Of a DNA stretch of 64,000 nt, positions 651 through 59,038 are shown piece after piece. Every line of letters begins with the position of its first letter. Within the stretch, counting starts at the first letter, position 1. Source of the DNA: a virus. The position numbers were made by a program, and so were the translations under genes. Under the pieces are notes generated by a model. It made no database searches. It had not been told where the DNA came from and was given only the letters and a program-made list of their open reading frames with translations. The stretch is taken from IMG/VR virus record IMGVR_UViG_3300042923_000474, positions 1-64,000 of that record; one strand, 5' to 3'.

Positions 651-672
651 AGACCTAGACTATCAAGGTGAA
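651..672 (+). promoter_or_regulatory. Promoter-like element P1, upstream of chimallin
   Basis: One of five copies of a 22-bp element with core ACCTARAYTATYAANKTGA. This copy has ACCTAGACTATCAAGGTGA and lies 54 bases before the chimallin ATG. Shared position and orientation upstream of operons support promoter function. That vRNAP reads it is an inference. Confidence 0.6.
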
Positions 673-726
673 TGGTTCTGGAATTAGCTATTCATAGGCC
701 GAAATAATTCCATCAAGGAGACGGCA

Positions 727-2763
727 ATGCCCGTTGAAAAACGAGGCGACGCATCTTCTGGGAACATCATGGCAGAGGCTTTTAAGAAAGCCAATGTCGC
801 GACCCCGGAACCGTCGCCAAAACAACCCGAGACATCCGCAGCGTCTTCCGCTTCGAGTGCCCAGGTTGAAACTTCTGCGGTCGAAAGACCACAGCCTGCA
901 ATACGACAACGGCAAGCCCAGCAACGCGAAGCAGTTGTCGAACAATCCTCTCACGTGAAAAAGGACAGCATCAACATGTCTCAAACTGACTTCTCCCAAG
1001 GCCGCCGCGACCAGGGCAAAGACGCCAAGAACTTCAACACCCTGAACGACATGGGTGCGAAGCGTCTGCGTCCGCTCAGTCGTTCGGCTGGCTCCGTGCG
1101 CGCCAAAGAACTGGCAACTGCGATCGAGAAAGAGCTGAATGCTGGCCTGAACAAGGACGGCGTATCCAGCTGGGCTGTACAGATCCTGGACGCCGGTCAA
1201 CTGAACCTGCCAACCAGCTCGGTCGTGCTGCTGCAAACGGTCACCGCTGAAAGCATCGACCACATCACCATGTACTCGTTCATGATCGACGGCGCAGACA
1301 TTCGTCTGACTCCACGCGTGGACAAAGTCGATGGCCGTCCGTACGAAACCCCAGTGGTGATCGGCGACATCTACAACAGCCAGGACTACATCACTCGCGC
1401 CGAAGAGCTGATCAAGCAAGCCCGTCCAACCCGCCAGATCAACCTGATCGACGCCGGTGCGACCGTGTTCCCTGCTTCGTTCAACATCGAGCAACATGGC
1501 GTGTGGGACCTGCTGTACAAGGCCACTCTGGCCCTGTTCAACACCATGAACAACCAGGTTGATCTGGGCGAAGAGCCTGCGTACACCCTGGCCGGTCGCA
1601 ATGCCGGTAACGAGCAACTGGTTGGTCGCCTGAACTTCTCCGGCGAGAAGTACATCGACGAAGTCGGTCACCCACAACGTCACGATGTCGTGATCGAAAT
1701 GGACTCCGTGCGTCATCAGCAAGGTCGCGACTTCTCCGGCAACTCCAGCAACGTGACCAAGGTCGCGGGCTACATGGAACCGGTTTACGCTCAGCCTGAT
1801 CCGCAGAACCCAGCGAACAACCAGCCGTTCCTGAACCAGTTCGTTATCACCCAGCTGGCCACCGGTTACGACGCGATCGAAACCGAAATGACCATCCTGG
1901 CTCTGGTTACCTCGACCATGGTTCAAGTACGCAACGGCTGGGCTGACGCCTACCTGCCGCGCTACGCCAACCAGGGCAAAGAGCTGAACTACCGCGACGT
2001 CGGCGCGCTGGGCTTCTGCATGGGCGATGCCAAGCGTATCGACACCAAGGCTGCCAGCTTCAAGGACAACTTCGGCCAGTTCATGCGCGATTACTTCCGC
2101 CTGAACCAAGGCGTGATCTTCTCCATGGACATCCCTGAAGTCGGCCCTGATGCGTTCATCACTGACATCTTCCGCGCTGCGGCTGGTGGCAACCCGAACG
2201 CTGTAGCGGCAATCACCCAGGCGTGCGACAACCTGACCGGCGGTGTTTACAGCCAGAAGGTTGCTCAGTACGGCGGCAACTTCCCGATGTTCATCGACAC
2301 CGGCAACCGTATCCACAACGGTTACTACGTCAACGAAGCGGGCGAGCTGCGTGACATCCGTGACATCGACATGCTGGCAGTGGCCAACGTGCTCGGCAAA
2401 ACCAACCCGCAAGCGCTGGTTGACTACGCTGACTCGTACGTCGCATCCACCGGCCAAGCGGCCGTTCGCATGTCCAAGCGTCTGGCGATCATCGACGACG
2501 TGCTGCAAGGTCGTCAGGTCATCACTGGCTTCTCCGGTCGTTACATCATCGGCCCGAAATGGCTGCAGGTGATCTCCGAAGCTTGCCAAGCGTGCAACCT
2601 GGTTGTTAACCCAGCCAACATGGTTCACGGCCTGGGCTCGGGCGCTGTCCTCGGCGGTTACGACTACGCAGCATTCGCTGCCGGTGGTGCTGGCGGTGGC
2701 GTGTTCAACGGTGGCGGCAACAGCAACCCACAATCGGCTTACGCCGGTCGCGGTCGCTGGTAA
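727..2763 (+). CDS. chmA: Chimallin-like phage nucleus shell protein (ChmA)
   Basis: Likely the main building block of the proteinaceous phage nucleus, which self-assembles into a one-molecule-thick lattice around replicating DNA (phiKZ gp54, 201phi2-1 gp105, PhiPA3 gp53 family). Recognition rests on overall sequence character (KRLRPLSRSAGSVRAKE near the core start, a long alpha/beta body, a Gly-rich C-terminal tail ending AYAGRGRW), on size, and on synteny, since the next gene is RNAP beta', as gp55 follows gp54 in phiKZ. The reading frame gives 678 residues from ATG 727, which has a strong AAGGAG site. Residues 1-83 are a Pro/Ala/Ser/Gln-rich low-complexity extension. A second in-frame ATG at 976 (MSQTDFSQG) has its own AAGGA 10 bases upstream and would give 595 residues, closer to known chimallins. 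The core uses highly optimised codons, as expected for a very abundant protein; the extension does not. Confidence 0.82.
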   Translation: MPVEKRGDASSGNIMAEAFKKANVATPEPSPKQPETSAASSASSAQVETSAVERPQPAIRQRQAQQREAVVEQSSHVKKDSINMSQTDFSQGRRDQGKDAKNFNTLNDMGAKRLRPLSRSAGSVRAKELATAIEKELNAGLNKDGVSSWAVQILDAGQLNLPTSSVVLLQTVTAESIDHITMYSFMIDGADIRLTPRVDKVDGRPYETPVVIGDIYNSQDYITRAEELIKQARPTRQINLIDAGATVFPASFNIEQHGVWDLLYKATLALFNTMNNQVDLGEEPAYTLAGRNAGNEQLVGRLNFSGEKYIDEVGHPQRHDVVIEMDSVRHQQGRDFSGNSSNVTKVAGYMEPVYAQPDPQNPANNQPFLNQFVITQLATGYDAIETEMTILALVTSTMVQVRNGWADAYLPRYANQGKELNYRDVGALGFCMGDAKRIDTKAASFKDNFGQFMRDYFRLNQGVIFSMDIPEVGPDAFITDIFRAAAGGNPNAVAAITQACDNLTGGVYSQKVAQYGGNFPMFIDTGNRIHNGYYVNEAGELRDIRDIDMLAVANVLGKTNPQALVDYADSYVASTGQAAVRMSKRLAIIDDVLQGRQVITGFSGRYIIGPKWLQVISEACQACNLVVNPANMVHGLGSGAVLGGYDYAAFAAGGAGGGVFNGGGNSNPQSAYAGRGRW

Positions 2764-2909
2764 GAAGTTCGGCCGGGCGCGTAGTTCCCCTTCGCGCCTG
2801 ACTGTGCTACCGCTGAGTAATCAGCGGACGATAGGACGACTCGAAAGCCACTTGGTCGAAGACCAGGTCAACATAAAGGGTAGGCTGCCCTGTGATCGTC
2901 CGGGTACTA

Positions 2910-2928
2910 GCCGCCCTCCAGGGGCGGC
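2910..2928 (+). terminator. Terminator hairpin after chimallin
   Basis: GCCGCCC / GGGCGGC stem with a short TCCA-type loop, followed by TTTACTTATGCCCTC. It separates chimallin from the RNAP beta' gene. It carries the TATG tag seen after most hairpins in this window. Confidence 0.7.
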
Positions 2929-2969
2929 TTTACTTATGCCCTCAATTCTTTTTTATGGGAGATTTGGCT

Positions 2970-4475
2970 GTGGGGTTAATTGCCTACATCGTTGACCATA
3001 AGCAACTCCTCAATGAACTTGAAGAGCCACCGCTTGTTGTCAATGACCTGAATCTTGACTTCGGGACAAAAGAAGGTAAAGATCAGCTGGCCATGTATCT
3101 GTCGTTTCAATTCGACGGCGACATCATCCCAGCGGTACCAACCTGTCTCGGCGGTCACATCGGCGGGGAAGATAAACTCGGCGATAAGTGTGAGATCTGT
3201 GATACTCGGGTAACCAGTCTCGTAGACCGCGCTGTGGATCAGAGTGTTTGGATTCGCCCACCGGAAGGTGTCAACGGATTTATTCACCCTGAAGTCTGGA
3301 ACGTGCTGTCCCCCAGGCTGACTCCGCTCAAATCGTTCTCGATGCTGAGCTGGGTGTGTGACCCGAACTACGGCGAGACGTTACCGGCATTCGCTGCGGT
3401 GCTCGACGAGTACAAGAAGTTACACAAGCGTAGCCTCAACTACGTGTTGGAAAACTTCGATGACGTGATTCACTTCATCATTACATCGAAGCTGTGCAAC
3501 AAACTGTCGCTACAGGACAAGACCGACATTCAGTTGTTCTTGCTGCAAAACCGTGACAAGGTAATCCAGAAGTATCTGCCGTTACCTAGCTCCATCTTCG
3601 TGGTGTCCGAAAAGACAGCGATGGGTACCTACGCTGACGAGAAGACACCTGCCCTGTTGGATGCGATCTACATGATCACCTCCACCTACGGATCGGCCAT
3701 TGCGCTGAACCAACGGCAACGCGAATCGCACGCTGCTCGTTTCATGGCGGCTATCGGTCCGTGTTATCAGGCAATCTGTACCAAGTTCATCGGCAGTAAG
3801 TATGGTCTGGTTCGTCGTCAATTGATCGGCAGCCGTCTGCACTTTACTGGCCGGGCGGTTATCACTTCCATCAGTGATTCCCACCATTATGAAGAGCTGC
3901 ATGTACCTTGGGCTTTCGCTGTACAAATCCTGGAACCACATCTGCAGAACAAACTGATGCGCCGAGGCTTCTCAGCCAACGATGCACTGGAGTTCCTGGA
4001 AGATCACACGCTGCAATGGCATCCACTGTTGCGTGAACTGTTTGACGAACTGATTGCCGAAGCTCCGCCAATCGATGACTTCCCACCTGGGGTCTTCGAG
4101 GACATCGACAATGATCCATCGCTACTGCGTGGCATTCCGTGCCTGCTGCAGCGTAACCCATCGCTGACCCGCTTGTCGGCTCAGTGCCTGCGTATCACCC
4201 GAATCAAAGACGATGTCGAGGATTACACCATCTCGCTGTCGAACATGATTCTGGTCAGTTACAACGCCGACTATGACGGTGACGAACTGAACCTGTTGCT
4301 GTGCCTGGACAGGAAGATGCTGCAGTGGTTCGAGCGTTTCCGTCCACACCTGGGCATGCGTTCGCTGCGTGAGCCGCGTTCTTTGTCCGACAACCAGAAG
4401 ATCCACGCACCGGTCGCCGCTACATGGGCGCACTACGTGCACCATTCTGAACGTAAATCACCTACTGTTCATTAG
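2970..4475 (+). CDS. Non-virion RNA polymerase beta' subunit, N-terminal half (phiKZ gp55-like)
   Basis: Catalytic half of the split beta' subunit of the phage non-virion RNA polymerase that transcribes phage genes. The diagnostic motif NADYDGDELNL (first Asp near residue 434) is the beta' metal-binding NADFDGD loop, with all three Asp present. A CEICDT stretch near the N terminus resembles a zinc-binding knuckle. Upstream of the catalytic loop, the GLVRRQLIGSRLHFTGRAVI segment matches the beta' pattern of conserved basic residues and RAVI (GRNLLGKRVDFSGRSVI in bacteria). The start is uncertain: GTG 2970 has a GGGAG site at good spacing, while ATG 2955 has only a T-rich run before it. The position directly after chimallin matches phiKZ gp54-gp55. 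At about 500 residues it is far shorter than bacterial beta', consistent with the split architecture. Confidence 0.88.
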   Translation: MGLIAYIVDHKQLLNELEEPPLVVNDLNLDFGTKEGKDQLAMYLSFQFDGDIIPAVPTCLGGHIGGEDKLGDKCEICDTRVTSLVDRAVDQSVWIRPPEGVNGFIHPEVWNVLSPRLTPLKSFSMLSWVCDPNYGETLPAFAAVLDEYKKLHKRSLNYVLENFDDVIHFIITSKLCNKLSLQDKTDIQLFLLQNRDKVIQKYLPLPSSIFVVSEKTAMGTYADEKTPALLDAIYMITSTYGSAIALNQRQRESHAARFMAAIGPCYQAICTKFIGSKYGLVRRQLIGSRLHFTGRAVITSISDSHHYEELHVPWAFAVQILEPHLQNKLMRRGFSANDALEFLEDHTLQWHPLLRELFDELIAEAPPIDDFPPGVFEDIDNDPSLLRGIPCLLQRNPSLTRLSAQCLRITRIKDDVEDYTISLSNMILVSYNADYDGDELNLLLCLDRKMLQWFERFRPHLGMRSLREPRSLSDNQKIHAPVAATWAHYVHHSERKSPTVH

Positions 4476-4483
4476 GAGCAAGC

Positions 4484-4867
4484 ATGAATCAATTGGGCCC
4501 CAACCTAACCAAGATTCTGCAAGAGCAACAAGCAGATATCGATCCGCTGCTCAAGGGCATGATCGATGATCAGGGAGCCACCAATGCGGTGGTCGATGGC
4601 GTTGCTCAAGTCATCCTGGAAAAGATTGCCATGGCACAAGTCGTGGCAGTTACCAGCGCCGCCACACAGAACAAACCTGTGGACGTGAGTAAGATCCAAC
4701 AGGGGCGGGTTAAGCTTGTAGAGGGTCTGCTGATGATGTTGGAAGGTCAAGATGCTTTGATCGACTTCATCGGCGAAGACGAGATCCTGGGCGATGTCGA
4801 CTTACTGGAAGTTCTCCGTGAGTTCATCGCCTACAACCAGCCCCCAAGCGAGGAATCCGCACAATGA
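4484..4867 (+). CDS. Small acidic unknown protein
   Basis: 127 residues, starting 8 bases after the RNAP beta' stop with a GGAG site (AGGAGCAAGC before ATG). It is helical and acidic, with a hydrophobic middle (VVAVTSAA) and an acidic C-terminal third (LIDFIGEDEILGDVDLL). No family recognised. It overlaps the next gene by 4 bases (ATGA), so translation is probably coupled across 4484-5689. Codon use matches its neighbours. Confidence 0.8.
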   Translation: MNQLGPNLTKILQEQQADIDPLLKGMIDDQGATNAVVDGVAQVILEKIAMAQVVAVTSAATQNKPVDVSKIQQGRVKLVEGLLMMLEGQDALIDFIGEDEILGDVDLLEVLREFIAYNQPPSEESAQ

Positions 4868-5689: not shown

Positions 5690-5698
5690 AGGTGAAAA

Positions 5699-6337: not shown

Positions 6338-6343
6338 AGTAAT

Positions 6344-6373: not shown

Positions 6374-6408
6374 TTTATGACACTATTTTTTTTTTGCCGG
6401 AGATTGAC

Positions 6409-10629: not shown

Positions 10630-10673
10630 ATGCTCCCGAGTTGAAAAGTTGGCATAACGAACAACCAGATTTG

Positions 10674-10695
10674 AAACCTAAATTATCAACGTGAG
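10674..10695 (+). promoter_or_regulatory. Promoter-like element P2, upstream of gp68-like RNAP subunit
   Basis: Copy with ACCTAAATTATCAACGTGA, 43 bases before the ATG at 10739 and just after the SSB terminator. It is nearest in sequence to the copy at 59017. Confidence 0.6.
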
Positions 10696-10738
10696 CATCC
10701 CCCAAGATGTTCGTAACTGACCAAGGAGCCCACGAACG

Positions 10739-12262
10739 ATGGAGATCTTAATTGAAGGTTATTCTCCTACGGGAGCCTTCAAACGGGTTGCCGTGGTACA
10801 TGACGGCAAAACGATCTCGTGGAACACGCAGACTTATTCCAAGCTGAAGTTCCACAATGCGGCAGTGATCTTTAAAGAGATCAACGAACTCTGGGCTAAG
10901 AAGTCGCCTGAGGTTCAGAAGAAGATCTTCGCAGCTTTTGAGGAGATTCATCAACATCTCACAGAGCCCGAGGATAACCAACAGCAGGTCGAAAGACTGG
11001 GCGTGTTGGTGGCAATTATCTACAAGCACTTTACAGCCAAGGATGCCGAAGATATCGTCAACAGTTTGAACTTGACGTATCCAAGCTCCATGGTGGAAGA
11101 CTACACCAGCATCCCCGACAACGGTCGAACCCATACACGGGCAGACTACCACAGACTGGTTCAGCTGGCGATTCGCCTGCGTCCCATGTTGCCGGTGTTC
11201 GGGCAGTACATCCACACGTTCTTGGATCAGCCGGGCTCCCAGTATCGGGAAACCAGCGCGGTCAAGATCCTGAACGATACAGATGTGCTCAGGATGCCTG
11301 CGGTAGAAAAGCTGGTTGGTTTCATGGAGGCAACTCTCAAGAACTTCCAGCACCAGGACTCAGCTATCTTGGGTGGGAAACTGGGTTCTGCGGAAATGCC
11401 TTACTGGCTGGTCGCCAAGGCTATCTTCCGAAGAATTGCGCCGGGTGAAGTACACAGCGTGGACGATGTTTCTTCGATCATCACCAACGTGTACAACTTT
11501 GTGGTGAAGTCGACGCTCGACTCCATCCCAAGGAACTTTGGCGGCACCAAGAACAAGACCCGCACAACCGAAGGCTCGGGTAAGGATGAAAACGTTTCGT
11601 TGTTGGAGGCGATCCGTATCCGTGAGCAGGTATCGGGTGGTCGTCGGAAGATTGTTGACATCTACTCGCGGAACATCTTGTTCACTGCGCGTCGTGTTGA
11701 TCCGACTGTACCAGAAGACCTCGTGCACGAATGCTGCCGCCCTGACATGGCTCGCATCAGTCGTTCCGTACATCCAGTACAAAAGGTCTTGGCCTGCTGG
11801 GTGATGTCTCGTGGTCAGCCACCGAGCCACTACGACCTGCTCAAACGCGAACCTGTGTACCGCTTCATCGGAGCTGCCCAAGCTCTGCTGTGGCATTGGG
11901 GTTACATGGAACTCGCTGCGCTGATGGAAGCTGCACCTGTGCAGGATCTGACCATGGCTCCCGCTGCTGCTCTCTGGGCACGCGAAGAGCTGAGCAAAGA
12001 AAGACTGGAGCGGTTGCGTGAGCGTTATCCGTACACCACCCAGTTGACCCGTGGTAGCCAAAACCCCGATGAGGCTGTCAAGGGTGTCGTGGAGAATGCT
12101 GAGCTAGCTCGGATGATCCACAGTGAAGAATGGGTCCTGGACAAAGACTCGCGGTTCTACAACATCGTGAACCACAACGAGCATGGACACATCATCCTGT
12201 CCCCAGGTTTCCGCAACACAATCGCTGACCTACAACTCGATGTGTCCTCGGGTACTTGGTAA
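10739..12262 (+). CDS. Non-virion RNAP fifth subunit (phiKZ gp68-like)
   Basis: 507 residues with an AAGGAG site. In phiKZ the fifth nvRNAP subunit gp68 (about 520 residues, no bacterial homologue) is needed for promoter recognition. The call here rests on length, gene order (this gene, two unknowns, RNAP beta C-half, beta' C-half, as in phiKZ 68-69-70-71/73-74) and the shared upstream element. Sequence features are a helical N-terminal third, a Lys/Arg/Thr linker (FGGTKNKTRTTEGSGKDEN, about residues 265-285), and a helical C-terminal half with ELSKERLERLRERYPY. No sigma-factor signature is visible. It could be a non-RNAP replication protein if synteny misleads. Confidence 0.62.
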   Translation: MEILIEGYSPTGAFKRVAVVHDGKTISWNTQTYSKLKFHNAAVIFKEINELWAKKSPEVQKKIFAAFEEIHQHLTEPEDNQQQVERLGVLVAIIYKHFTAKDAEDIVNSLNLTYPSSMVEDYTSIPDNGRTHTRADYHRLVQLAIRLRPMLPVFGQYIHTFLDQPGSQYRETSAVKILNDTDVLRMPAVEKLVGFMEATLKNFQHQDSAILGGKLGSAEMPYWLVAKAIFRRIAPGEVHSVDDVSSIITNVYNFVVKSTLDSIPRNFGGTKNKTRTTEGSGKDENVSLLEAIRIREQVSGGRRKIVDIYSRNILFTARRVDPTVPEDLVHECCRPDMARISRSVHPVQKVLACWVMSRGQPPSHYDLLKREPVYRFIGAAQALLWHWGYMELAALMEAAPVQDLTMAPAAALWAREELSKERLERLRERYPYTTQLTRGSQNPDEAVKGVVENAELARMIHSEEWVLDKDSRFYNIVNHNEHGHIILSPGFRNTIADLQLDVSSGTW

Positions 12263-15686: not shown

Positions 15687-15714
15687 GAGTGAGTTCCTGA
15701 GGTAAGGGAATTTG

Positions 15715-15736
15715 AGACCTAGATTATTAAGTTGAA
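15715..15736 (+). promoter_or_regulatory. Promoter-like element P3, upstream of RNAP beta C-half
   Basis: Copy with ACCTAGATTATTAAGTTGA, 79 bases before the ATG at 15816. It lies between the divergent starts of 15686 (minus) and 15816 (plus). Confidence 0.6.
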
Positions 15737-15815
15737 GGTCGTTTGGCTTTCATAAGTTAGGCTTTGATTACAGCGAGCACTTCAGTCGCCGTGGTCAAAA
15801 GGAGATAGGAACAAT

Positions 15816-17921
15816 ATGCCCCGTTCAAAGGCCAATCAACTGCATCCTGAGTTTCTCTCGACGCAGAACCTGAATCCTTTTGTGGGCAATGACTCGGCTT
15901 CGCGTAAACAGATGATGGCGGGCAACATGCCCCAAGCGTTGTCTCTGCTTAATCCAACTCGTCGGATACTGATGACGGGTATGGAACCTGAGTACGCGAA
16001 ATACGTGTTCAAGATTGAAATGCCGTGCGATGCGTACGTCATTGATGTCATTGACCGAGTCACTGCCAGTAATGTCAAAGGAGCCCTCAAACGCAACCCT
16101 GAGACCGTGGTGGTCTACGAGGATATTCAGAGCGGTGAAGTTGGGGTGATGTACATCCCAGAGTACCTGTCGTTCCATAAGCGGTTCGGCTTCGAGTTGG
16201 TCAAGGTTCCAGAAGCCATGGCGTTACTCGTGCCAGGGAACGGCGTCCCTAAAGGTACTGTGTTTGCACAACCTGCTACTGTAACACCGGAAGGTGAGTA
16301 CATGTACGGGCGGGAGCTGTCCTGCGTTTGGGCTACACTGCCAGGCGTAATTGAAGACGGCGGCATTATCGGTGAGACCGCTGCACGCAACATGTCCACT
16401 TACATGTACGAAGAACGTTCTGCGTCCTTCGGTAAGTCTGAGTATCCGCTCAACTTGTTCGGTGACGACGAGACGTATCGGATGTGCCCAGACGTAGGCG
16501 GGATTGTCGGGGACGATGGTGTCCTCATGGCATTCCGTCGCAAGCGCGAGATGATGGGATCGGTTGAAATGACCCCAGAGCGCCTGCGCAAGATCGACCG
16601 TATCTCTGATCGTCAGATCAAGGTACCGCCAGGATCTGAGGTTGTGAACATCACAGTCCAACACGATTCTGAAGCACGGGTGAACAACACGCCATTCGGC
16701 ATGGAATACACACCGAGCCGTTATGACGACGCTCAGCGCCGTTACTATCAGCGGATCATCGCCAAGTATCGTGAGCTGGAAAACTCCCGTCCAGGAGAAC
16801 AGCTGGTACTGTCGCGTGAGTTCCACCGTCTGGTAGTGGAAGCACTGGTTTACATCAACCCGTATCACAAGGGCGGTCGTAAGCTGTGCTACCGGAAAGT
16901 TGAACTGGATGATTGGCGCATCACTGTTACGGTACGCAAAGAAATCCGTGCGGGCATGGGTATTAAAATCACCTGTACTCACGGCGGTAAGGGCGTAATC
17001 GTTAAGGTGATGAAAGACGAAGATATGCCACGCGATAAGCATGGTCGTATCATCGATCTGGTCATGGACCCGATGTCACTCACCAAACGGATGAACATGG
17101 GTCGAGTAATCGAACCACGGATCAGTTCGGTGTGCATGGAGTACACACGCTTGTTGCGTGAAGCTCTGGGTCTGCGCGATGAGTTCACCCAGTACAACGT
17201 GGCCGAAGCGATTGTGCGTAAGCGTGGTGAGCTGCACACGGAGTTCTTCGATAAGTTCATGAGCTTCTATGAGCTGATCTCTCCGCGCATGGCTAAAGGT
17301 ATCCGCGACTACGAAGGCTTCAGTATTGAAGGCCATCTGGCCACAGTAGCTGCACACGGTATGCAACTCTGGCTACCTACCGATAACCCGGTGGTGTACT
17401 CGGACATCCTGCCACGTCTGCGTGCAGAGCATCCGTGCAACTATAGTCAGATCACGTGGCGCACTGGCAAAGGTAAAGTGGTCACCAGCCGCAAAGAAAT
17501 GGTTGTGGGTTCCATTTACACGATCATGCTGGAGAAGATTGCCCGAGACATGGCTGCCGTATCCTCGGCGAAGCTACAGATCAACGGCGTGCCTTCCCGG
17601 ATTGCGAACAACGATCGCTACAGCAGCCACATCCGCATGCAGCCAATGCGTTTTGCGGGTGAGACTGAAGTGCGGTTGATGCTGATGGCTATCGGTGGGA
17701 TGGCGACACGGGATCTGTTGGAACAAACCAACAACCCAGACTCGCATGCAATCGTGTACGAGAGTATCGTGCTGGCTGACTTCCCAACCAACCTGCCAGA
17801 AGCCATTCCGCGGGATAAGTTCCCTGCTAACGGCCACCGGATTGCCAAGCAGATCAAAGACCTTCACATGTGTGCGGGGATTGGATTTAAGCTGGTACCT
17901 GATAACATTCCAACTGAGTGA
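15816..17921 (+). CDS. Non-virion RNA polymerase beta subunit, C-terminal half (phiKZ gp71-73-like)
   Basis: 701 residues with a GGAGATAGGA site. The key evidence is HGGKGVIVKVMKDEDMPRD followed by IDLVMDPMSLTKRMNMGRVIE (about residues 389-430), a close match to the bacterial beta block [21 protein letters not shown]...VPSRMNIGQILE. Both active-site lysines (Lys392 and Lys397 here) are kept. This half contributes part of the catalytic centre, paired with the beta' halves at 2970 and 17927. In phiKZ the matching gene is, to my knowledge, interrupted by an intron-borne ORF (hence the name 71-73). Here the frame is continuous. It overlaps the next gene by a few bases or abuts it, so beta C and beta' C are co-translated. 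Confidence 0.9.
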   Translation: MPRSKANQLHPEFLSTQNLNPFVGNDSASRKQMMAGNMPQALSLLNPTRRILMTGMEPEYAKYVFKIEMPCDAYVIDVIDRVTASNVKGALKRNPETVVVYEDIQSGEVGVMYIPEYLSFHKRFGFELVKVPEAMALLVPGNGVPKGTVFAQPATVTPEGEYMYGRELSCVWATLPGVIEDGGIIGETAARNMSTYMYEERSASFGKSEYPLNLFGDDETYRMCPDVGGIVGDDGVLMAFRRKREMMGSVEMTPERLRKIDRISDRQIKVPPGSEVVNITVQHDSEARVNNTPFGMEYTPSRYDDAQRRYYQRIIAKYRELENSRPGEQLVLSREFHRLVVEALVYINPYHKGGRKLCYRKVELDDWRITVTVRKEIRAGMGIKITCTHGGKGVIVKVMKDEDMPRDKHGRIIDLVMDPMSLTKRMNMGRVIEPRISSVCMEYTRLLREALGLRDEFTQYNVAEAIVRKRGELHTEFFDKFMSFYELISPRMAKGIRDYEGFSIEGHLATVAAHGMQLWLPTDNPVVYSDILPRLRAEHPCNYSQITWRTGKGKVVTSRKEMVVGSIYTIMLEKIARDMAAVSSAKLQINGVPSRIANNDRYSSHIRMQPMRFAGETEVRLMLMAIGGMATRDLLEQTNNPDSHAIVYESIVLADFPTNLPEAIPRDKFPANGHRIAKQIKDLHMCAGIGFKLVPDNIPTE

Positions 17922-17926
17922 GCCCC

Positions 17927-19918
17927 ATGTCACTGATCGTTATCAATGGACGCGAGCTGCTTGGCATGCGTCCCGAACGTGTCAATGAATGGCTCATGGC
18001 TAAAGGCCTGGCAGAAGACGCAAAAGTTCTGCTGGAGCTGGACGACGGCCAACATGAGTCATCGGTTCAGCGGGTGGTTTATTCAACCTTCTGCTGGAAC
18101 TTTCAACGCATCTGGAAGAAGACTGCGCTCTGCGCCCGTCATGCGTTACTTCCACCTGCGCGCATTACCAGCAACAGCCATCTGCGGCTGATGGAGCACA
18201 GCTACTGGGATACCTTCGACACCTACCTTGAGGCGGGCGAAGAGCTGGACCTGGAATACCTGGACCTCATCGGCTGTAAGTCCGCCAACGCCATCTACAA
18301 CTACGCGGTCGATGAACTGCAAGAGTGGGTCGAAACGCTGTCGCTCGACGACTACTCCGACGTTGTAGAGTCTCCAGAGATCAAACACGCTCTGGATACC
18401 GTAGAGCCCAACCGTCGTTCCGTGGCAGAGTGTCACGACAACATCGGTCGCCTACTGATGACGTCGCCGGACCTGGAAAAGAATACGCTGTCGGAGTTCT
18501 GCCGATCGCGATTCATCATGAACGGTCAGGTGTTGCAGTGCATCGGTCCAAAGGGTTATCCCACAGAGATCAGTTCGGGTTACTTCCGTCATCCGATTCT
18601 GAACTCATTCTTGACGGGTCTGAACACGCTGTACGAAAGTGCGGCCGAGTCTCGCTCTGCTACTAAGGCGATGTACTACTCGAAAGACCACGTTGAGAAG
18701 GGTGAATACTTCCAGCGTAAGATGCAGCTGGGCGCGTTCCCTGTGGCACGGTTGTTCAAGGGTGACTGCGGTTCTACCAAGTACCTGCAGATCACGATGA
18801 GCGAAGAGCTGCTTTATGCGTTTGCCGGTAAGTACCGACTGACGAAAGAAGGCAAGCTTGTAGCCATCTGGAAGAACAGCCGTGAATTGATCGGTGAAAC
18901 GATTCTGCTGCGCTCCTCCATCCACTGTCAGCGCTTCCATGAGCACGGCGTGTGTCAGACCTGCTTCGGCTATCTGGGACATTCTATTGTTCGTGGTTCC
19001 AACCTCGGCCATGTATCCTCGTCTGAGCTTTGCAAGGACGCCTCTCAGGCGCTTCTGGCAGTTAAGCATAGCGATGCTACCGTGGACATCGCAGACATCG
19101 CCCTGGGCGATCTGGAGCAGCTCTACCTCACACCATCGGCAGACGAAGAGGCTGCAGACCTACGGTTGTTGTATAACTCGGGTCTGAAGGATCTCCGGCT
19201 GGCTGTCGATGAACGCTACGTGCGTAACTTGCACGACGTGAAGGTAGTGGACGATCTGTCCAAGCTGACCCTGTCGAACACCACCAGCCTGTATTCGCTA
19301 CAGCTGTGGTACACCGATGAGGATGGCTTTGAGCAGGTGCAGCGTTTGACGGTAGCCAACGGTTCTCGTCAGGCGTCGTTTACTCTGCCCATGCTGGAGT
19401 ACATCCGCAAAGCGGGTTGGACCATCGTCGAGGGGATGGTGGTAATTGACATGAAAGAATGGGAATACGATGACAGCCTGTTGTCGCTCCCAGTGCAGCA
19501 TGCCAACATGTTGGAGTACATCAACGACGTAGAAACCTTCACGCGCTCCAGTGGTAAAGGTAGCGGTGACGGCGCACGCGATCGTCTGGTGAACTACGAG
19601 ACTCTCGATGAGGGTCTACTGATGATGAACAAGATGGTGTCGTCGAAACTCAACGTCAACATCGCTCACCAGGAAATCGTTATCTCCTGCATGACCGCCA
19701 TCAGTGAAACTGACGCGCGCTTCCCGCGCATGCCGTCTGAAGGTACGATCCGTCCGTATGAGGATCTGATTCGTGATCGATCCCTAGCCGGGACTCTTTC
19801 TTACGAACATTTGGAGCGTATCTATGGAAACCCACGCACCTATTTGAATATGAACAGGTGCTATCATCCGATGGATGCGCTGCATGCCGATCTTCCAGAA
19901 GGCGTGACGGTGCTGTAA
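17927..19918 (+). CDS. Non-virion RNA polymerase beta' subunit, C-terminal half (phiKZ gp74-like)
   Basis: 663 residues from ATG 17927; a GTG at 17918 overlapping the previous stop (GTGA) is an alternative start. The block RSSIHCQRFHEHGVCQTCFG followed by GSNLGHVSSSELCKDASQALLAVKH (about residues 325-380) matches the beta' region with the second zinc cysteine cluster and the [22 protein letters not shown] motif. The KDHVEKGEYFQRKMQLGAF region corresponds to the bridge-helix area. It is directly coupled to beta C and followed by a hairpin. The related virion-polymerase half lies at 23502-24785 on the other strand. This is a core catalytic subunit; its role rests on motif plus synteny. Confidence 0.85.
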   Translation: MSLIVINGRELLGMRPERVNEWLMAKGLAEDAKVLLELDDGQHESSVQRVVYSTFCWNFQRIWKKTALCARHALLPPARITSNSHLRLMEHSYWDTFDTYLEAGEELDLEYLDLIGCKSANAIYNYAVDELQEWVETLSLDDYSDVVESPEIKHALDTVEPNRRSVAECHDNIGRLLMTSPDLEKNTLSEFCRSRFIMNGQVLQCIGPKGYPTEISSGYFRHPILNSFLTGLNTLYESAAESRSATKAMYYSKDHVEKGEYFQRKMQLGAFPVARLFKGDCGSTKYLQITMSEELLYAFAGKYRLTKEGKLVAIWKNSRELIGETILLRSSIHCQRFHEHGVCQTCFGYLGHSIVRGSNLGHVSSSELCKDASQALLAVKHSDATVDIADIALGDLEQLYLTPSADEEAADLRLLYNSGLKDLRLAVDERYVRNLHDVKVVDDLSKLTLSNTTSLYSLQLWYTDEDGFEQVQRLTVANGSRQASFTLPMLEYIRKAGWTIVEGMVVIDMKEWEYDDSLLSLPVQHANMLEYINDVETFTRSSGKGSGDGARDRLVNYETLDEGLLMMNKMVSSKLNVNIAHQEIVISCMTAISETDARFPRMPSEGTIRPYEDLIRDRSLAGTLSYEHLERIYGNPRTYLNMNRCYHPMDALHADLPEGVTVL

Positions 19919-39238: not shown

Positions 39239-39243
39239 CATAC

Positions 39244-52555: not shown

Positions 52556-52588
52556 GGGGCTTTATGCTGTCGGATATTAAAGTATCTC

Positions 52589-52610
52589 AGACCTAGACTA
52601 TCAATTTGAA
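52589..52610 (+). promoter_or_regulatory. Promoter-like element P4, upstream of small-protein operon
   Basis: Copy with ACCTAGACTATCAATTTGA, nearest to P1. It lies 26 bases before the leader ORF and 49 before the first larger gene (52660). Confidence 0.6.
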
Positions 52611-52636: not shown

Positions 52637-52663
52637 ATGAATCGTTTGGAAGTTGTCGTATGA
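52637..52663 (+). CDS. Leader peptide of 8 residues (MNRLEVVV)
   Basis: ATG with AAAAGGAA 6-8 bases upstream, stop TGA overlapping the next ATG (ATGA at 52660). The site before the leader is stronger than that before the next gene (GGAAG). It may act only as a translation-coupling leader for 52660; too short to judge as a protein. Confidence 0.4.
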   Translation: MNRLEVVV

Positions 52664-53118
52664 GCGTGACGTACTTCGTAGTTGCAAAGCCCGGTCAGAT
52701 CAAGAAGGCCCCCAACCTGCAGTATGCGGCCTACGTCGGAACGCTTGCAGGCTTCAAAGCTGAAACCGGTGACACCCTCAAAGAGTTCCAGATCACTACC
52801 CTCAGCGAACACGCGTCCAAGCATGTCTCGGTGATGGTGGCTACGCTGAACTCCGCTAACTTCCACAGCGATAAGGTGTACTTCATTGTAGACCTCGGCT
52901 ATGAGAAGTTGGATGATTTGGTGGATGACATCAACGCAGACCTCTGCTCAATGAAGTGGCGTTGGGTGGCATCGTGGTTGGCCGAGTGGACGCTAGAGGT
53001 TGGCGTTCACGATTATCAGGTGGCAGGCTTCAGAGACACTGCTGTTCAGGCACTGATCTTTGACCACGGCGCTGCCAAGGTACGCAAGAACTTCATCACT
53101 GACCTGGCTGCGGTCTAG
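52660..53118 (+). CDS. Unknown small protein, candidate early gene
   Basis: 152 residues starting MSVTYFVVAKPGQIK. Alpha/beta, no membrane segment, no motif recognised (features include VSVMVATLNSANFHSD and a Trp pair SMKWRWVASWLAEW). It is the first full gene after the P4 element. Being controlled by the same element as chimallin and RNAP genes, it is likely expressed early. It lies between a structural operon and the replication helicase, so it is not part of either by transcription. Confidence 0.7.
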   Translation: MSVTYFVVAKPGQIKKAPNLQYAAYVGTLAGFKAETGDTLKEFQITTLSEHASKHVSVMVATLNSANFHSDKVYFIVDLGYEKLDDLVDDINADLCSMKWRWVASWLAEWTLEVGVHDYQVAGFRDTAVQALIFDHGAAKVRKNFITDLAAV

Positions 53119-53127: not shown

Positions 53128-53577
53128 ATGAGCTTTACATTTGTTCACCACGCTCCATTGGGTCGTGGCGTTGATCCAAACAGCGAAGGCGACGTTCGCT
53201 ATCTGTACAGCTATCTGGATTTCTTGGATGGCGTTGATACCGGTGGTTCTTACATCGGTGGTGGTGTTGTGTTCCCGGACGTGGAAGACCCTGAGTTTGA
53301 GATTCAGATCTATCGCATCCTGGACCAGAACGTCCACAACGAAAAGCTGTACCTGATCTTTGAAATAAACATGGACCTCAAAGTCATGCTGACCGATAAG
53401 GGCCCTCTCTGGGATCGAGTTATGCGTCAGGTTAAATGGCACACCACCGAAGGCGGCGGCGGGCAGTGTGTAAATATCTATCAGGCAGGCAACGCAGCGG
53501 TGTTCGTCCTTGAATCCAATAAAGGAATGGACAGCGTCATTACCCAACAGTCCCGCTCGCAGTTTAAGGCGGTCTAA
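53128..53577 (+). CDS. Unknown small protein, candidate early gene
   Basis: 149 residues with a TAGGAG site 9 bases after the previous stop. Mixed alpha/beta with a Gly-rich turn (GGSYIGGGVVF) and a second GGGG segment (TTEGGGGQCVNIY). Resembles the 52660 protein in length and general strand pattern but not clearly in sequence. No family recognised. Confidence 0.7.
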   Translation: MSFTFVHHAPLGRGVDPNSEGDVRYLYSYLDFLDGVDTGGSYIGGGVVFPDVEDPEFEIQIYRILDQNVHNEKLYLIFEINMDLKVMLTDKGPLWDRVMRQVKWHTTEGGGGQCVNIYQAGNAAVFVLESNKGMDSVITQQSRSQFKAV

Positions 53578-53589
53578 CAGGAGAATGCA

Positions 53590-53946
53590 ATGTACGGTAA
53601 TAACAAGTTCGGTGAGGAGATAATCCCAGCTGATCCTGAAATGCACATCCACCACACTGAATTCTACAAACGGAATCCACTGGCTCGACGGCTGGCAGAT
53701 TCTCCTTTAAAGAAGATTGGCCTCTTGCATGTATTGGTACTACTCTTCTTCATTGGCCTTGGAGCTACTTATGCATTACAAGAACTGGTCGGCACTGGAC
53801 TTGGCACTGATCCTGGAGTTGACACTCCAAAAGGATGGGGACAAGCAAGAGAATATCCGCTCAACCTTAACCAGCCTGTCGAGCCCCGACAAGGTGTGGA
53901 AACACGGGGACGAGTCTCTGCCTCTGTACTGCCGGAGTCTGCTTGA
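53590..53946 (+). CDS. Small single-pass membrane protein, overlapping the next gene
   Basis: 118 residues with an AGGAGA site. Charged N-terminal 40 residues, one hydrophobic segment (IGLLHVLVLLFFIGLGATYAL, about residues 43-63), then a Pro/Gly/Asn-rich tail. Topology is likely N-in, tail out. The last 176 bases overlap a gene in another frame (53771-54187). No lipobox or spanin signature. Its position after two soluble candidates makes it a possible membrane partner. Function unknown. Confidence 0.68.
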   Translation: MYGNNKFGEEIIPADPEMHIHHTEFYKRNPLARRLADSPLKKIGLLHVLVLLFFIGLGATYALQELVGTGLGTDPGVDTPKGWGQAREYPLNLNQPVEPRQGVETRGRVSASVLPESA

Positions 53947-54187: not shown

Positions 54188-54201
54188 CTGCGGCATAAAG
54201 C

Positions 54202-54229
54202 CTCCCTCCCACCTACGGGTGGGAGGGAG
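54202..54229. terminator. Bidirectional terminator between convergent genes
   Basis: CTCCCTCCCAC / GTGGGAGGGAG-type stem with CTACG loop. CGGCATAA on the left and TTATGCTG on the right form an outer inverted repeat, and a T run follows on the right. Confidence 0.82.
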
Positions 54230-54256
54230 TTATGCTGTCACTGTTTTTTTTTTGTC

Positions 54257-55807
54257 TTAGAAGTCAGTCATGAAGTTGGTCATGTCAGCCTGATCTTCAC
54301 CGACCTTACGCATGGAGCGATCTGGACCATTGACGTCATCAGGGAAACCAGGCGCCAGGTTCTCCGAGAACTTGTACACCCAGTACAGGTCACGACTTGG
54401 GGTGATGGAACTGATACGGTGCTTACCGCGTCGGTTAGTCAGGTAGGCATTCCCGCCGAACTCAACGATGTGGCAGTAGATCTCCATGTCCAGTTCCTGG
54501 TGTAGGGTACGGCAACCGTCGTAGTAACCACGACCAGCCACTTCGTTAACCAGCTGCTCAGTCACACCCATCTTGGTCAGGTTCAACGCCTCAGACGACA
54601 TCTGGTGCGCTGTGATCAAACCAATCTTCTTCTTGTTGAAGAAGTTACGCACTCGGGAGTACAGGTTCTTGACGTCAGCCCCTGTCATGCCCTGAGTACA
54701 GCCTTCCTTGTTCAACTTCGCCAGGTAGTCGATCACACACAGCTGGATCTCGTAACCGAGCTTCTCGTAGTATTCGATCAGGGCGAACAGTTTACGGAAG
54801 TTGGAGTTGTCAGGGTCAACCCGGATGAACTCAACCTTCCAACCATTCTTCTCCAAACGATCCTTAACAACCGCCGACACCTCTTCAATCGACATGTTGA
54901 TGGTTTTAGGATCGACACGAATACCTTGCTCATTGAGCATGATCTGTGCGTAGACGCCTTTGTAGTTGTCCTCCACCGACTGCTCGTAAGAGATGTGCAG
55001 CAGTAGAGGAATCCTGCCGGGCGTGACCAGCGGGAAGTTGTACTGCGCTGCCTGCCGGAAATAGTTCAGCACCTTACCGGATTTGAAGTTGTGAGACAGA
55101 GCCGAGACGCAGAGCACGTCCACACGACGCAGGCCTTCCGCATCACCGAATGCACGGTTGTCACCCTGCCAGCCAAACTTGAAGACATAGTCAGCGATTG
55201 GGTCGTCTTCACCTTCTTCTGACTTGAACTGATCTTTGATGTTATCGAGTTCGCCAACAGCGATACGCTCCATCACACCCAGATCTTCTAGGCCACCTAC
55301 GCCGCCCACGCGGTGATAAGGTTCGAGTTCCAGAACCAGATCACGAACGAATGTGGACCAGTCAATCTTGGCCCCTTCGAACATGAGCTTACGGCGAGCC
55401 TTCGCAATGATTTGATCTACAGCCAACTTAGCCTGATAGCTTTGGATGTCGTAGATGGTGCGATCGCGGTACTGGGCCATCTTCTCATTGTCGTCTGAGA
55501 TGTCCAAGAACCCGATGAACGCTTCAACAATAAACGACTCGCCCTGTGCGTTCATCGTTATTCTTTGAAGTAGGTCCTCACGGCCGACTGGTGTGCCTTC
55601 GCCGACACACTGCACCAACCACCCGGCCGTGCTAAGCAGGCCTTCAAGGATTTCTCGCCCGTAGTCGTTCTCTGCACCGGCGTTGGGTAACTCCGTGGTG
55701 TTGATAATCTCACGAGCCAAAGTGAGTATGTCATCACTGCGAGTCCCGAGCAGGCCTTCGACGTGCAGCAACGAAATGACTTTGATCAGCAGGAGTTTGT
55801 TATCCAT
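54257..55807 (-). CDS. DnaB-like replicative helicase
   Basis: 516 residues with an AGGA site. The C-terminal RecA-like part has the Walker B block LCVIDYLAKLN (Asp360) and the DnaB-type follow-up LITAHQMSSEALNL (His401/Gln402 in the sensor position), placed as in DnaB. The Walker A is odd: SALSHNFKSGKV (residues 235-246) keeps GK but lacks the leading Gly and the Ser/Thr after Lys. phiKZ-like helicases also look unusual here, from memory. The N-terminal 150 residues are helical as in DnaB. Replication fork unwinding is the likely role. The start codon shares a CATG with the divergent gene at 55806. Confidence 0.78.
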   Translation of the reverse strand: MDNKLLLIKVISLLHVEGLLGTRSDDILTLAREIINTTELPNAGAENDYGREILEGLLSTAGWLVQCVGEGTPVGREDLLQRITMNAQGESFIVEAFIGFLDISDDNEKMAQYRDRTIYDIQSYQAKLAVDQIIAKARRKLMFEGAKIDWSTFVRDLVLELEPYHRVGGVGGLEDLGVMERIAVGELDNIKDQFKSEEGEDDPIADYVFKFGWQGDNRAFGDAEGLRRVDVLCVSALSHNFKSGKVLNYFRQAAQYNFPLVTPGRIPLLLHISYEQSVEDNYKGVYAQIMLNEQGIRVDPKTINMSIEEVSAVVKDRLEKNGWKVEFIRVDPDNSNFRKLFALIEYYEKLGYEIQLCVIDYLAKLNKEGCTQGMTGADVKNLYSRVRNFFNKKKIGLITAHQMSSEALNLTKMGVTEQLVNEVAGRGYYDGCRTLHQELDMEIYCHIVEFGGNAYLTNRRGKHRISSITPSRDLYWVYKFSENLAPGFPDDVNGPDRSMRKVGEDQADMTNFMTDF

Positions 55808-56345
55808 GTACCGGTCCTATATGTTCGGAGGTCGAGACTACCAACCGGGGGCGATTAACCTTATCGCTGTACCTCGGTGGCTCGACTTGGCTTTTAAATC
55901 GAAGGGAGTGACGGTCGAGCAAGCCATCGGGCTCGATCCTCAACTGGGATTCACTGACTGTCGCAGTACGCAGTTCGTTGCGCCTATAGTGTCATCCCAA
56001 GAGGTTGACTTTCACAACACTGTCACGTGGGGATTGGCCGATTACCTATTCCCTGAGCCTAAGCAACGAGGCAACCGTGACGAACTATATGCGAAACTTG
56101 TGCGCGATTGGCACGGGGTTCCTCTTGTAAAAGGGCTGAAGGTTAACCTCCACCCTATTATCTTGGGGAGCAATCTCATTGGTCTGTACCACGTCGAGGA
56201 AGAACCCGGTGTGACCGATACAGATTTATATGGGCGTATTCTGCGATGCGCACATACCTTGGCTTATAGCAAAATCGGTGTCGGTGCTTTCGGCTGCGAC
56301 TTGATTAAGGATGTGTTGTACGAGATTTCGCTGGGTCAGCAATGA
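55806..56345 (+). CDS. Unknown protein with shared divergent start
   Basis: 179 residues from ATG 55806 (AGGAG 10 bases upstream, inside the helicase gene), overlapping the helicase start codon by 2 bases on the other strand. A second ATG at 55821 lacks a good site. Alpha/beta with a possible beta-hairpin core and no motif that I recognise. It ends 127 bases before the major capsid gene, with a palindrome between. Function unknown; a late or capsid-related role is a guess from position. Confidence 0.68.
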   Translation: MYRSYMFGGRDYQPGAINLIAVPRWLDLAFKSKGVTVEQAIGLDPQLGFTDCRSTQFVAPIVSSQEVDFHNTVTWGLADYLFPEPKQRGNRDELYAKLVRDWHGVPLVKGLKVNLHPIILGSNLIGLYHVEEEPGVTDTDLYGRILRCAHTLAYSKIGVGAFGCDLIKDVLYEISLGQQ

Positions 56346-56424
56346 TCTGGCACAAGGATCTGTAACGACGGCTCGCCCGTAGTAACAGGTATCATATAGC
56401 GAACGTATTTCAACGGGTCGCTTC

Positions 56425-56438
56425 GTTAGTCGACTAAC
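56425..56438. repeat. 14-bp perfect palindrome upstream of capsid gene
   Basis: GTTAGTCGACTAAC, 35 bases before the capsid ATG. It could form a short RNA hairpin in the leader or be a protein-binding operator. No other copy was noticed in the window. Confidence 0.5.
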
Positions 56439-56472
56439 ACAAACGCAGCATCCAGTAACTGGAGAGTCATAC

Positions 56473-58794
56473 ATGAACGTGTTTTCTTTGGCAGGTGGTG
56501 CTCAGGCTCCCCTGGACACCTTGGTGGCGAGCCTCAACGCAAGCTTCAAGAACCGCAAGTCCGAGTTCGGCGACCACATGATCAAAGGTATGGTCATGGC
56601 TGTCGAAGGCCTTGACGATACCACTCAGGCCAACCTGCGCGCGTCGCTGGGCAGCCTGAAAACCATGATCGTTGAATCGTTCTCCGAAGTCGAGAACAAC
56701 CTCAACCTCGGCCACCTGGGCGACGTTGAAGCGAAAGATGCCAACGGCACCACCATCAAGTCGGATACCGCCGGCCTGAACGAAAACCAACTGCGCGCTG
56801 CTACCGCCGTCGCAATGGCTTTCAGCGATCCTGAAGCTTACGCTTTGGCCGCGACCAACACCGCTACTCCAAGCGGCGCTCAAGCTGTTACCATGGCCTC
56901 TGAAGGCCTGGGTGGTCAGCTGCAGCACTTCAGCAAATCCGTCATGGCCCAGGAAGCGTTCTCTGAACAACCTCTGCGCCAAATGATGGGCTGGTCCGTG
57001 ACCCTCGCTGCTGCCAACGCCCGTCAAGACGCGTTCGCCGAAGCCTGGTTCCCGACCACCGTTCTGACTCCGGCCGACGCCGGTCTGACTCTGTCCATCG
57101 CCCGCTCCATGATCGTCAACACTCCGATCCACGAGCTGAACGGTGCACCGAACAACCTGAACCGCGTCAACCTGATCGATGCTGCTCGTAACCCAGAAAT
57201 CCTGGAAGACGAAAGCACCCGCATCATCCCGGTTGTTCCTCAGGACACCAACAGCCCGATCCGTGACTTCCTGATCGCCGACTTCGGCATCCAGAACGTC
57301 GACATCGATGGCTTCAAGGTTCCAACCGCTCCGCTGAAGTTCGGCGCTGTTGGCTTGATCAACGTCTCCACTCCTTCGCACCTGGCTCAGGCTGGCGTGA
57401 TGGATCTGACCGACGCCATCGGCCAGGGCGCTCGTCTGGAATACCTCGTTGGTAAACTGGGCGACGACTACCTGCGTATCAACGTGCGCAACCTGGCGAC
57501 CTCGGGCTTCCTGCCTGCTCAAGAAGGTGAAGCGCCTCGTCAAGTCCTGAGCTTCGTTGCTCAAGATCTGCCGATCCACGCTGGCACCCGCACCGTTTCC
57601 GGCGCCGTCATCGACTGGCCGGAAGTTGTGAACAACGAACTGACCATCCGCTACGCGGTTGACGTCACTGGTTCGTTGGACCTGCAAACCACCGAAGCTC
57701 GTGTCAACGGTGCCATCATCGGCATCAGCGCTGTCCTGGACAAGGATGGTAACGAGATCTCGCTGGAAGACGGCATCGGCAAAACCGTTGCTGACAAGTT
57801 CAAGGCGGACTTCAAGCTGGAAGGCTGGTACCCATTCGCCGTGCGTACCAACGAAAACCGTCGTCAGCTCGGCAAACTGCTGGACGTGCTGGAACAGCGC
57901 TACTGCTACGGCATCCCGCTGACCGCACCGATCTCGGTTCCGGCTCCTGTTGGCTCCAACAAGCCAGCTCAGAACCTGGAAGCTCTGATCTCCGCTCAGC
58001 GCCGCCGTTGCTCGAACGCTGCGATCACCACCCTGATCAACCACGCTGGTCTGCTCGCAGACTACATGGCTGGTAAGCGCCGTAAAGGCACCATGCCTCA
58101 GCTGGGTTCGATCGGTCGTCTGGTCGTGCATCCGTTCTACGAGAAGCGTGTTATCGACGCCGCCGCTGCCGTGCAAACCCTGCGCGACAACGACAAAGCG
58201 CTCGACATCGCTGCGCTGCTCACCAACACCATCAAGGATCTGGCAGCCGACATGCTGATCCAGTCGGCATACCCTGCCGCGCTGGAAGCTTCGCTGACTG
58301 GTTCCAAGTCGGTGAAACTGCTGGTTGGTACCGACATCAAAATCGGTCAGCACCTGCAAGTGGTTGGTGATCTGCGTACCTTCGGTCCGATGTTCAGCAA
58401 CATGACCGTTGTGACCACCCTGAACAAGAAGATGGACAACCGCGTCTTCCTGACGCTGACCCGCGACAGCGAGTCGAATGTCCCTGACGTACTTCAGTTC
58501 GGCTGGCACGCGTTCATGCCTGAGCTGGTTTCCGTTGTTCAGGTTACCCGTCACGGCAACACCCGTCAGGAAGCAACTGTGCAATCGCGTTACCTGCACA
58601 TTTGCAACCTGCCAATCCTGGCCGAAATCGAAGTGAAGAACCTGTCTCAGGCTCTCTACAACAAATCGGCCATGCGCGTCGAGCTTACTCAGGAGTCGGA
58701 GTTTCCCGTTGTCCCTGGCGACGGTACTGACCCAGACGCAGGTGGTACTGCCGGCGGTGCTGGTACTGGCAGCGGCACCCAACCAGGCGCCTAA
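56473..58794 (+). CDS. Major capsid protein (phiKZ gp120-like), with cleavable propeptide
   Basis: 773 residues with a GGAG site. Size, strong codon optimisation, position near nvRNAP beta N (gp120-gp123 in phiKZ), and the processing signals all point to the major capsid protein. VMAVE (Glu45) and TMASE (Glu144) fit the phiKZ-type prohead protease rule of cutting after Glu in A/S/G-x-E. phiKZ gp120 is cut at about residue 163, so Glu144 (GLGGQ follows) is the likely mature N terminus, leaving about 629 residues. The mature body has an HK97-like pattern of long E-loop and mixed alpha/beta, and ends in a Gly/Thr/Asp-rich tail (GGTAGGAGTGSGTQ), which is probably disordered. Confidence 0.88.
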   Translation: MNVFSLAGGAQAPLDTLVASLNASFKNRKSEFGDHMIKGMVMAVEGLDDTTQANLRASLGSLKTMIVESFSEVENNLNLGHLGDVEAKDANGTTIKSDTAGLNENQLRAATAVAMAFSDPEAYALAATNTATPSGAQAVTMASEGLGGQLQHFSKSVMAQEAFSEQPLRQMMGWSVTLAAANARQDAFAEAWFPTTVLTPADAGLTLSIARSMIVNTPIHELNGAPNNLNRVNLIDAARNPEILEDESTRIIPVVPQDTNSPIRDFLIADFGIQNVDIDGFKVPTAPLKFGAVGLINVSTPSHLAQAGVMDLTDAIGQGARLEYLVGKLGDDYLRINVRNLATSGFLPAQEGEAPRQVLSFVAQDLPIHAGTRTVSGAVIDWPEVVNNELTIRYAVDVTGSLDLQTTEARVNGAIIGISAVLDKDGNEISLEDGIGKTVADKFKADFKLEGWYPFAVRTNENRRQLGKLLDVLEQRYCYGIPLTAPISVPAPVGSNKPAQNLEALISAQRRRCSNAAITTLINHAGLLADYMAGKRRKGTMPQLGSIGRLVVHPFYEKRVIDAAAAVQTLRDNDKALDIAALLTNTIKDLAADMLIQSAYPAALEASLTGSKSVKLLVGTDIKIGQHLQVVGDLRTFGPMFSNMTVVTTLNKKMDNRVFLTLTRDSESNVPDVLQFGWHAFMPELVSVVQVTRHGNTRQEATVQSRYLHICNLPILAEIEVKNLSQALYNKSAMRVELTQESEFPVVPGDGTDPDAGGTAGGAGTGSGTQPGA

Positions 58795-58827
58795 TCCGTA
58801 AGGGTTGGTAACTGGCTAAACATAGAG

Positions 58828-58845
58828 GCCAGCCTTCGGGCTGGC
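58828..58845 (+). terminator. Terminator hairpin after capsid gene
   Basis: GCCAGCC / GGCTGGC stem (TTCG loop), followed by TTTTATGCCGTCG, the full TTTATGCYGTC tag. It closes the capsid gene and faces the minus-strand microgene at 58861. Confidence 0.8.
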
Positions 58846-58860
58846 TTTTATGCCGTCGTT

Positions 58861-58989
58861 TCATTTCTGCTTGACCTTACCTTCCACAGCTTCCTTGAGC
58901 AGAACCTTATCCAGCGAGTAGTTAGTGGCAGCACGACGCTGTTGCTTGTAGATTGCCATGCAGTCGATTTGATGAAAAGCAGGTTTCAT
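58861..58989 (-). CDS. Microprotein of 42 residues
   Basis: ATG at 58989 with a perfect AGGAGG 6 bases upstream, and stop TGA (58861-58863) next to the capsid terminator tag. The product starts MKPAFHQIDCMAIYK, is basic (net positive, Lys/Arg-rich end) and helical, with no membrane segment. The strong site and normal codons make it a credible gene although short. No family recognised; it may be a small regulator or host-targeting peptide. Opposite strand to all neighbours. Confidence 0.65.
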   Translation of the reverse strand: MKPAFHQIDCMAIYKQQRRAATNYSLDKVLLKEAVEGKVKQK

Positions 58990-59016
58990 AATAGCCTCCT
59001 AGTTTAAACGAAATAC

Positions 59017-59038
59017 AAACCTAAATTATCAATGTGAG
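59017..59038 (+). promoter_or_regulatory. Promoter-like element P5, upstream of RNAP beta N operon
   Basis: Copy with ACCTAAATTATCAATGTGA, nearest to P2. It lies between the microgene start and the plus-strand operon 59132-61976. Confidence 0.6.

Follow-up and report, generated by a model that had tools for sequence, protein, structure and literature searches.

Early-promoter-like elements, often followed by a predicted stem-loop at the transcript start, in a group of nucleus-forming jumbo phages

Our window, the opening 64 kb of a virus record of 231,724 bp, carries five copies of an element that, judged from its sequence, is almost certainly the start signal by which a particle-borne RNA polymerase would turn on the first genes of a jumbo phage. 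We put at roughly 0.9 the probability that these copies belong to the early promoters of the virion RNA polymerase (vRNAP), which would head about 18 early units and start RNA at the G of a TGA, about half of the transcripts having at their start a predicted hairpin that acts in RNA. Taken jointly with this explanation, the carrier very probably represents a new group of jumbo phages that encode chimallin and form a nucleus. By its likeness to the published promoters of EL, OBP, phiKZ and AR9, the element is an addition to a known kind, the early promoters of phiKZ-like phages. What is new here is that the transcripts are often predicted to start with a stem-loop exactly at +1.

In the window, ACCTARAYTATYAANKTGA has five exact matches, all on the plus strand (653, 10676, 15717, 52591 and 59019), as the first-pass annotation of this DNA had claimed with coordinates that began two flanking bases earlier. 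Allowing up to three mismatches on either strand added no further match in the window, in keeping with the claim that the minus strand holds no copy. The count expected by chance is 0.16, and no shuffle gave five. All five copies are intergenic, and the distance from the predicted +1 to the start codon is 57 bases for chimallin, 46 for the gp68-like subunit of the non-virion RNA polymerase (nvRNAP), 82 for beta C, about 29-52 for the operon of unknown proteins behind P4 and 157 for the operon of phrog_7727 and beta N (Table 1). The targets named at first reading (chimallin, gp68-like, beta C/beta' C and the beta N operon) were borne out by PHROGs and Pfam. The gp68-like protein aligns with phiKZ gp68 at 26% over 421 aligned columns (BLASTP, E 3e-47), and chimallin followed by beta' N is the order of phiKZ gp54-gp55. 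PHROGs match none of the three small proteins of the P4 operon. A tiny open reading frame, MNRLEVVV-stop (window 52637-52663), overlaps the start of the first of these proteins (52660) through its ATGA end, an arrangement that the relative G001 does not have. The window contains no Rfam families and no tRNAs.

Table 1. Predicted early promoters, the genes behind them, predicted leader stem-loops and a terminator-like hairpin (window coordinates)
Feature	Position	Strand	Basis
Early promoter P1, before chimallin and beta' N	635..672; core 653-671; predicted +1 670	+	exact match
Early promoter P2, before gp68-like nvRNAP subunit	10658..10695; predicted +1 10693	+	exact match
Early promoter P3, before nvRNAP beta C and beta' C	15699..15736; predicted +1 15734	+	exact match
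Early promoter P4, before operon of small unknown proteins	52573..52610; predicted +1 52608	+	exact match
Early promoter P5, before phrog_7727 and nvRNAP beta N operon	59001..59038; predicted +1 59036	+	exact match
Chimallin (phage nucleus shell protein), P1 target	727..2763	+	PF25677 E 2e-43; phrog_4795 E 8e-73
nvRNAP beta' N-terminal part, next large gene after chimallin	2892..4475	+	PF00623, phrog_2987
gp68-like (sigma-like) nvRNAP subunit	10739..12262	+	phrog_3209 E 1e-85
nvRNAP beta C-terminal part	15816..17921	+	PF00562, phrog_3295 E 2e-185
nvRNAP beta' C-terminal part	17918..19918	+	phrog_3015 E 7e-146
P4 operon, three small proteins	52660-53118, 53128-53577, 53590-53946	+	no PHROGs match
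phrog_7727 protein, first large gene of beta N operon	59193..60338	+	E 2e-24
nvRNAP beta N-terminal part, phiKZ gp123 homologue	60357..61976	+	phrog_2943 E 8e-132; tblastn to phiKZ
5'-terminal stem-loop of chimallin mRNA (P1), predicted, from +1	670..693	+	fold -6.8 kcal/mol
5'-terminal stem-loop GAGCAUC/GAUGUUC (P2), predicted	10693..10712	+	-8.4 kcal/mol; P(first 3 nt paired) 1.00
5'-terminal stem-loop GAAGGUC/GGCUUUC (P3), predicted	15734..15751	+	-7.6 kcal/mol
P5 leader stem-loop, begins near +7, not +1	59042..59068	+	-7.3 kcal/mol
Strong terminator-like hairpin then TTTTATG, upstream of P5	58828..58853	+	sequence

The element is longer than the 22 bp at first ascribed to it. An alignment of 61 non-identical sites from six records, collected with a search pattern that allowed three mismatches, is conserved from about -35 to +3, or roughly 38 bp, with the approximate consensus GAWWTAACNNAWTYTSARACCTARAYTATYAANNTGA. 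Columns outside the search pattern are conserved like those inside it (A at -30 in 84%, T at -21 in 89% and A at -19 in 97%), and one of them, A at -29, is the same in all 61 sites. The AT-rich core, TARAYTATYAA, has its centre at about -9 if the conserved G is +1, and this G, 6 nt past TTAT or TTAC, is likewise present in 61/61 aligned sites. The window copies share the layout TAT, six nucleotides, G, and read GGTG, CGTG, GTTG, TTTG and TGTG from -3 to +1. The two sub-classes that had been proposed are weak: comparing the base before the core with base 6 of the core gives Fisher p = 0.06 in the record, which is not significant, and p = 0.03 over the relatives, which are non-independent.

For the whole record (G000), about 156 kb was read as stretches and the remainder was covered by pattern search only. 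The window pattern with up to two mismatches has 13 matches and an upstream-extended pattern 18, all on the plus strand, and a reversed-pattern control gave none; the total is about 17-18 copies in a single orientation. Outside the window, the copies lie mostly before small genes whose products have no or only weak matches. The first reading had proposed one small regulon; because there are about 17-18 copies genome-wide, most of them before small genes without known function, we see instead an early-gene promoter set, not a three-target regulon, and the five-site group is the window's share of this general early gene set. One promoter precedes a gene for a protein like SspB (stringent starvation protein; G000:191048-191491, equivalent to L011:11048-11491; phrog_8945, E 2.5e-6), whose product could possibly interfere early with host proteolysis. 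A distant homologue of the PhuZ tubulin is encoded at G000:218822-219784 (L219), with 26% identity to EL gp16 (E 5.8e-8).

Related records carry the element upstream of the same genes, and the upstream-extended pattern gave 18, 12 and 18 matches in three of them, on a single strand in each. The chimallin copy (P1) has orthologous copies in G001, G003 and G005, the gp68-like copy (P2) in G001, G003 and G004, and the beta C copy (P3) in G001, G002 and G003, with a weaker one at the same gene in G004, a distant relative with 56-70% protein identity; the G001 counterparts of P4 and P5 are at 225532 and 1009. When the pattern was run across a viral contig collection, most of the matches listed looked like chance occurrences in short unrelated contigs, and we kept as relatives only contigs that were found by protein too. 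Among named phages, LucasX and FLC9 have the nearest chimallins; a search of 50 kb of each with a generic pattern turned up no clear copy.

Early promoters of this kind have been predicted for EL (WTTTYAAACCTACATTATY), OBP (...TTTYARRYAKATATTATYWWADTG) and phiKZ (TATATTAC), with similar ones in N1M2 and 201phi2-1 (PMC7058600). According to a review, a motif of this kind can be recognised upstream of presumed early operons in every jumbo phage that encodes RNA polymerases; it defines the phiKZ-like early promoter as a highly conserved, AT-rich stretch of ~10 nt with its centre near -10 (PMC7598289). The EL promoter is nearly the same sequence as the element here, and the EL record (NC_007623) has putative phage promoters annotated upstream of gp16 (PhuZ), gp33, gp79-80 (beta N), gp159 and gp179; EL gp33 weakly resembles the gp68-like protein by BLASTP (E 3e-4), and a copy with three mismatches lies upstream of EL chimallin. 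The EL proteins are only distantly related, and BLASTP does not recognise there the protein that heads the beta N operon. With phiKZ, the element shares the layout TTTNAR...TATATTAC-6N-G and its targets gp54 (chimallin), gp68 and gp121-123, the last preceded by an element at 120671, whereas the phiKZ core TATATTAC differs from ACCTARAYTATYAA here. Of the OBP, N1M2 and 201phi2-1 predictions, that of OBP has the upstream TTTNAR, the TTAT and the terminal TG in common with ours; KATATTAT stands where the element here has CTARAYTAT. In AR9, dRNA-seq defined the early promoter as AAATATATATTAT-(6N)-G+1 (in short, ...ATTAT-(6N)-G+1), and in phiKZ and phiR1-37 the start site is 6 nt downstream of the element (PMC5312081). 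AR9, which forms no nucleus and has uracil in its DNA (PMC7598289), shares the spacing and the start base with our element, and the upstream half is different.

Since TTAT or CTAT is here followed by six bases and then G, homology places +1 at the G of TGA. We infer this start site, recognition by the vRNAP and early timing, all three, from the comparison. The copies point toward the operons behind them, and those of chimallin, gp68 and beta N have early counterparts in relatives that have been studied, as in phiKZ and EL. For phiKZ, P54E is described as an early promoter, and nvRNAP subunits are given as early products (PMC4666361). Several copies lie shortly downstream of strong terminator-like hairpins, as one would expect where a transcription unit begins. 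The phage encodes a vRNAP separately, as homologues of EL gp184 and gp186 (G000:127977-132745), and no element precedes these genes, the nearest copies being at 115693 and 137405. The original suggestion of a promoter for the vRNAP has thus gained support from the near identity with the EL promoter, the AR9/phiKZ spacing, the position before orthologues of phiKZ early genes and the presence of the phage's own vRNAP. The timing had been left as early or middle, and early is much the more likely of the two.

Strong G+C hairpins followed by a short T-run and TATG form a class of their own. They occur in the window at 58828, 54202/54229 and 29129 and elsewhere at G000:190949, 192852, 206948 and 221777, and the combination is far above chance, with 27/76 strong G+C hairpins in G000 (background 0.8%), 42/146 in phiKZ (3%) and 7/88 in EL (1.3%). 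Because the combination is also found at convergent gene ends, it may be a terminator signature, though TATG is the late start signal of phiKZ. A role as a hidden late-promoter determinant was rejected on the same occurrence at convergent ends, and because the tested late promoter p119L (oligonucleotides) had no such hairpin. Hairpins in the phiKZ early region seem to finish in TTTATTTT rather than in a T-run and TATG.

At many sites, a different hairpin follows directly after the element, and its first base pair includes the +1 G, with stems such as GAGGACU/AGUUCUC and those of P2 and P3 (Table 1). When 34 nt were folded from each position at the 61 sites, pairing of the first base had a probability of 0.59 at the predicted +1, compared with 0.32 for a start one base upstream and 0.21 for a start one base downstream. 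The mean fold energy was -6.12, as against -3.86 +/- 0.25 in shuffles, and 31/61 starts were firmly paired where 8.9 were expected. The stem-loop excess at +1 holds up against shuffling in two lineages that are distant from each other: for G000 alone, 0/1000 shuffles reached the observed energy or pairing, and for G004 alone, 0/1000 reached the energy and 8/1000 the pairing. The hairpin is missing at about half of the sites, several of which have short leaders, such as P4, where folding found no 5'-terminal hairpin.

Despite changed bases, the chimallin leaders of G001, G003 and G005 fold into a stem too, and in some groups of orthologous leaders every changed pair was kept (six kept and none broken at 186960, three and none at 59019 against G001, two and none at 202172). 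Covariation over all sites in the two closest genomes was modest (25 kept and 20 broken; null 19.7 +/- 3.0, p about 0.05), and related genomes are non-independent samples for this comparison. Early starts of phiKZ have no general hairpin (P 0.37 versus 0.31 +/- 0.07) and EL starts no clear 5'-terminal ones; the phiKZ chimallin start does have a 5' hairpin. We therefore dropped the hairpin as a family-wide feature, and promoters of this class cannot depend on it. The open-licence literature that we searched contains no description of 5'-terminal hairpins in this phage group.

Could the nvRNAP itself read the element, as a middle or autoregulatory promoter? The targets do include nvRNAP subunits and chimallin, and yet this explanation is highly improbable. 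The phiKZ nvRNAP requires TATG at -3 to +1, and in vitro it is robust only on a late promoter, not on early P54E or a middle promoter (PMC4666361); none of the five window copies has the phiKZ-type late TATG with G at +1, and all combine NNTG at these positions with the early-promoter consensus, which agrees with the initial claim that the element is distinct from the late signal. The middle motifs of phiKZ are, moreover, weak and centred at -24 (PMC7598289). Still more improbable is that these are host sigma-70-type promoters, or operator sites bound by a regulator of the host RNA polymerase: the AT-rich stretch near -10 would suit the former, but a promoter scan called nothing at P2 and P3, the two elements scanned, where TTGACA and TATAAT with a 16-18-nt spacer are absent, and the logo shows no TTGACA around -35. 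The element is also non-palindromic, always lies along the direction of transcription and keeps a fixed TAT-6N-G.

Another question is whether the dyad downstream of the element works as DNA, as an operator or a cruciform like those of N4 vRNAP promoters, instead of as an RNA hairpin. Its start is fixed relative to the promoter, as a DNA feature might be. In N4, the promoter hairpin lies upstream of +1; here, the paired bases begin at +1 and extend downstream, and half of the promoters have no dyad at all. The imperfect stems hold 18 G-U against 5 A-C mismatches, some of them at orthologous and hence non-independent sites, an asymmetry that is expected only for RNA of this strand and so favours RNA over a DNA dyad. 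We therefore regard the DNA reading as unlikely, and the hairpin most likely works in RNA.

Under the early-promoter explanation, the vRNAP would enter with the phage DNA, bind the roughly 38-bp element and begin transcription at +1, the G of its closing TGA. Some 18 early units would be turned on in this way, among them the nucleus shell, nvRNAP subunits and many small genes of no known function, and the shell and the second polymerase would be produced in the first wave. About half of the early transcripts would open with a stem-loop whose first pair uses +1. Stem-loops at 5' ends are known elsewhere, and by analogy our guess is that the simplest and most likely role of this one would be to shield the mRNA 5' end from 5'-dependent decay. 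More specifically, the vRNAP promoter could be coupled to the +1 hairpin as a cap-like shield that replaces or complements the phiKZ RNase E inhibitor Dip, a tentative idea that we hold at slightly worse than even odds; searching by sequence, we found no Dip homologue, which is a weak negative.

Overall, the early gene set of a little-known nucleus-forming branch, about 18 transcription units, could here be read directly from sequence, and it points to first-wave expression of the shell and the second polymerase in this branch too. If the +1 hairpin is real, early messages may be protected through the shape of their 5' end.
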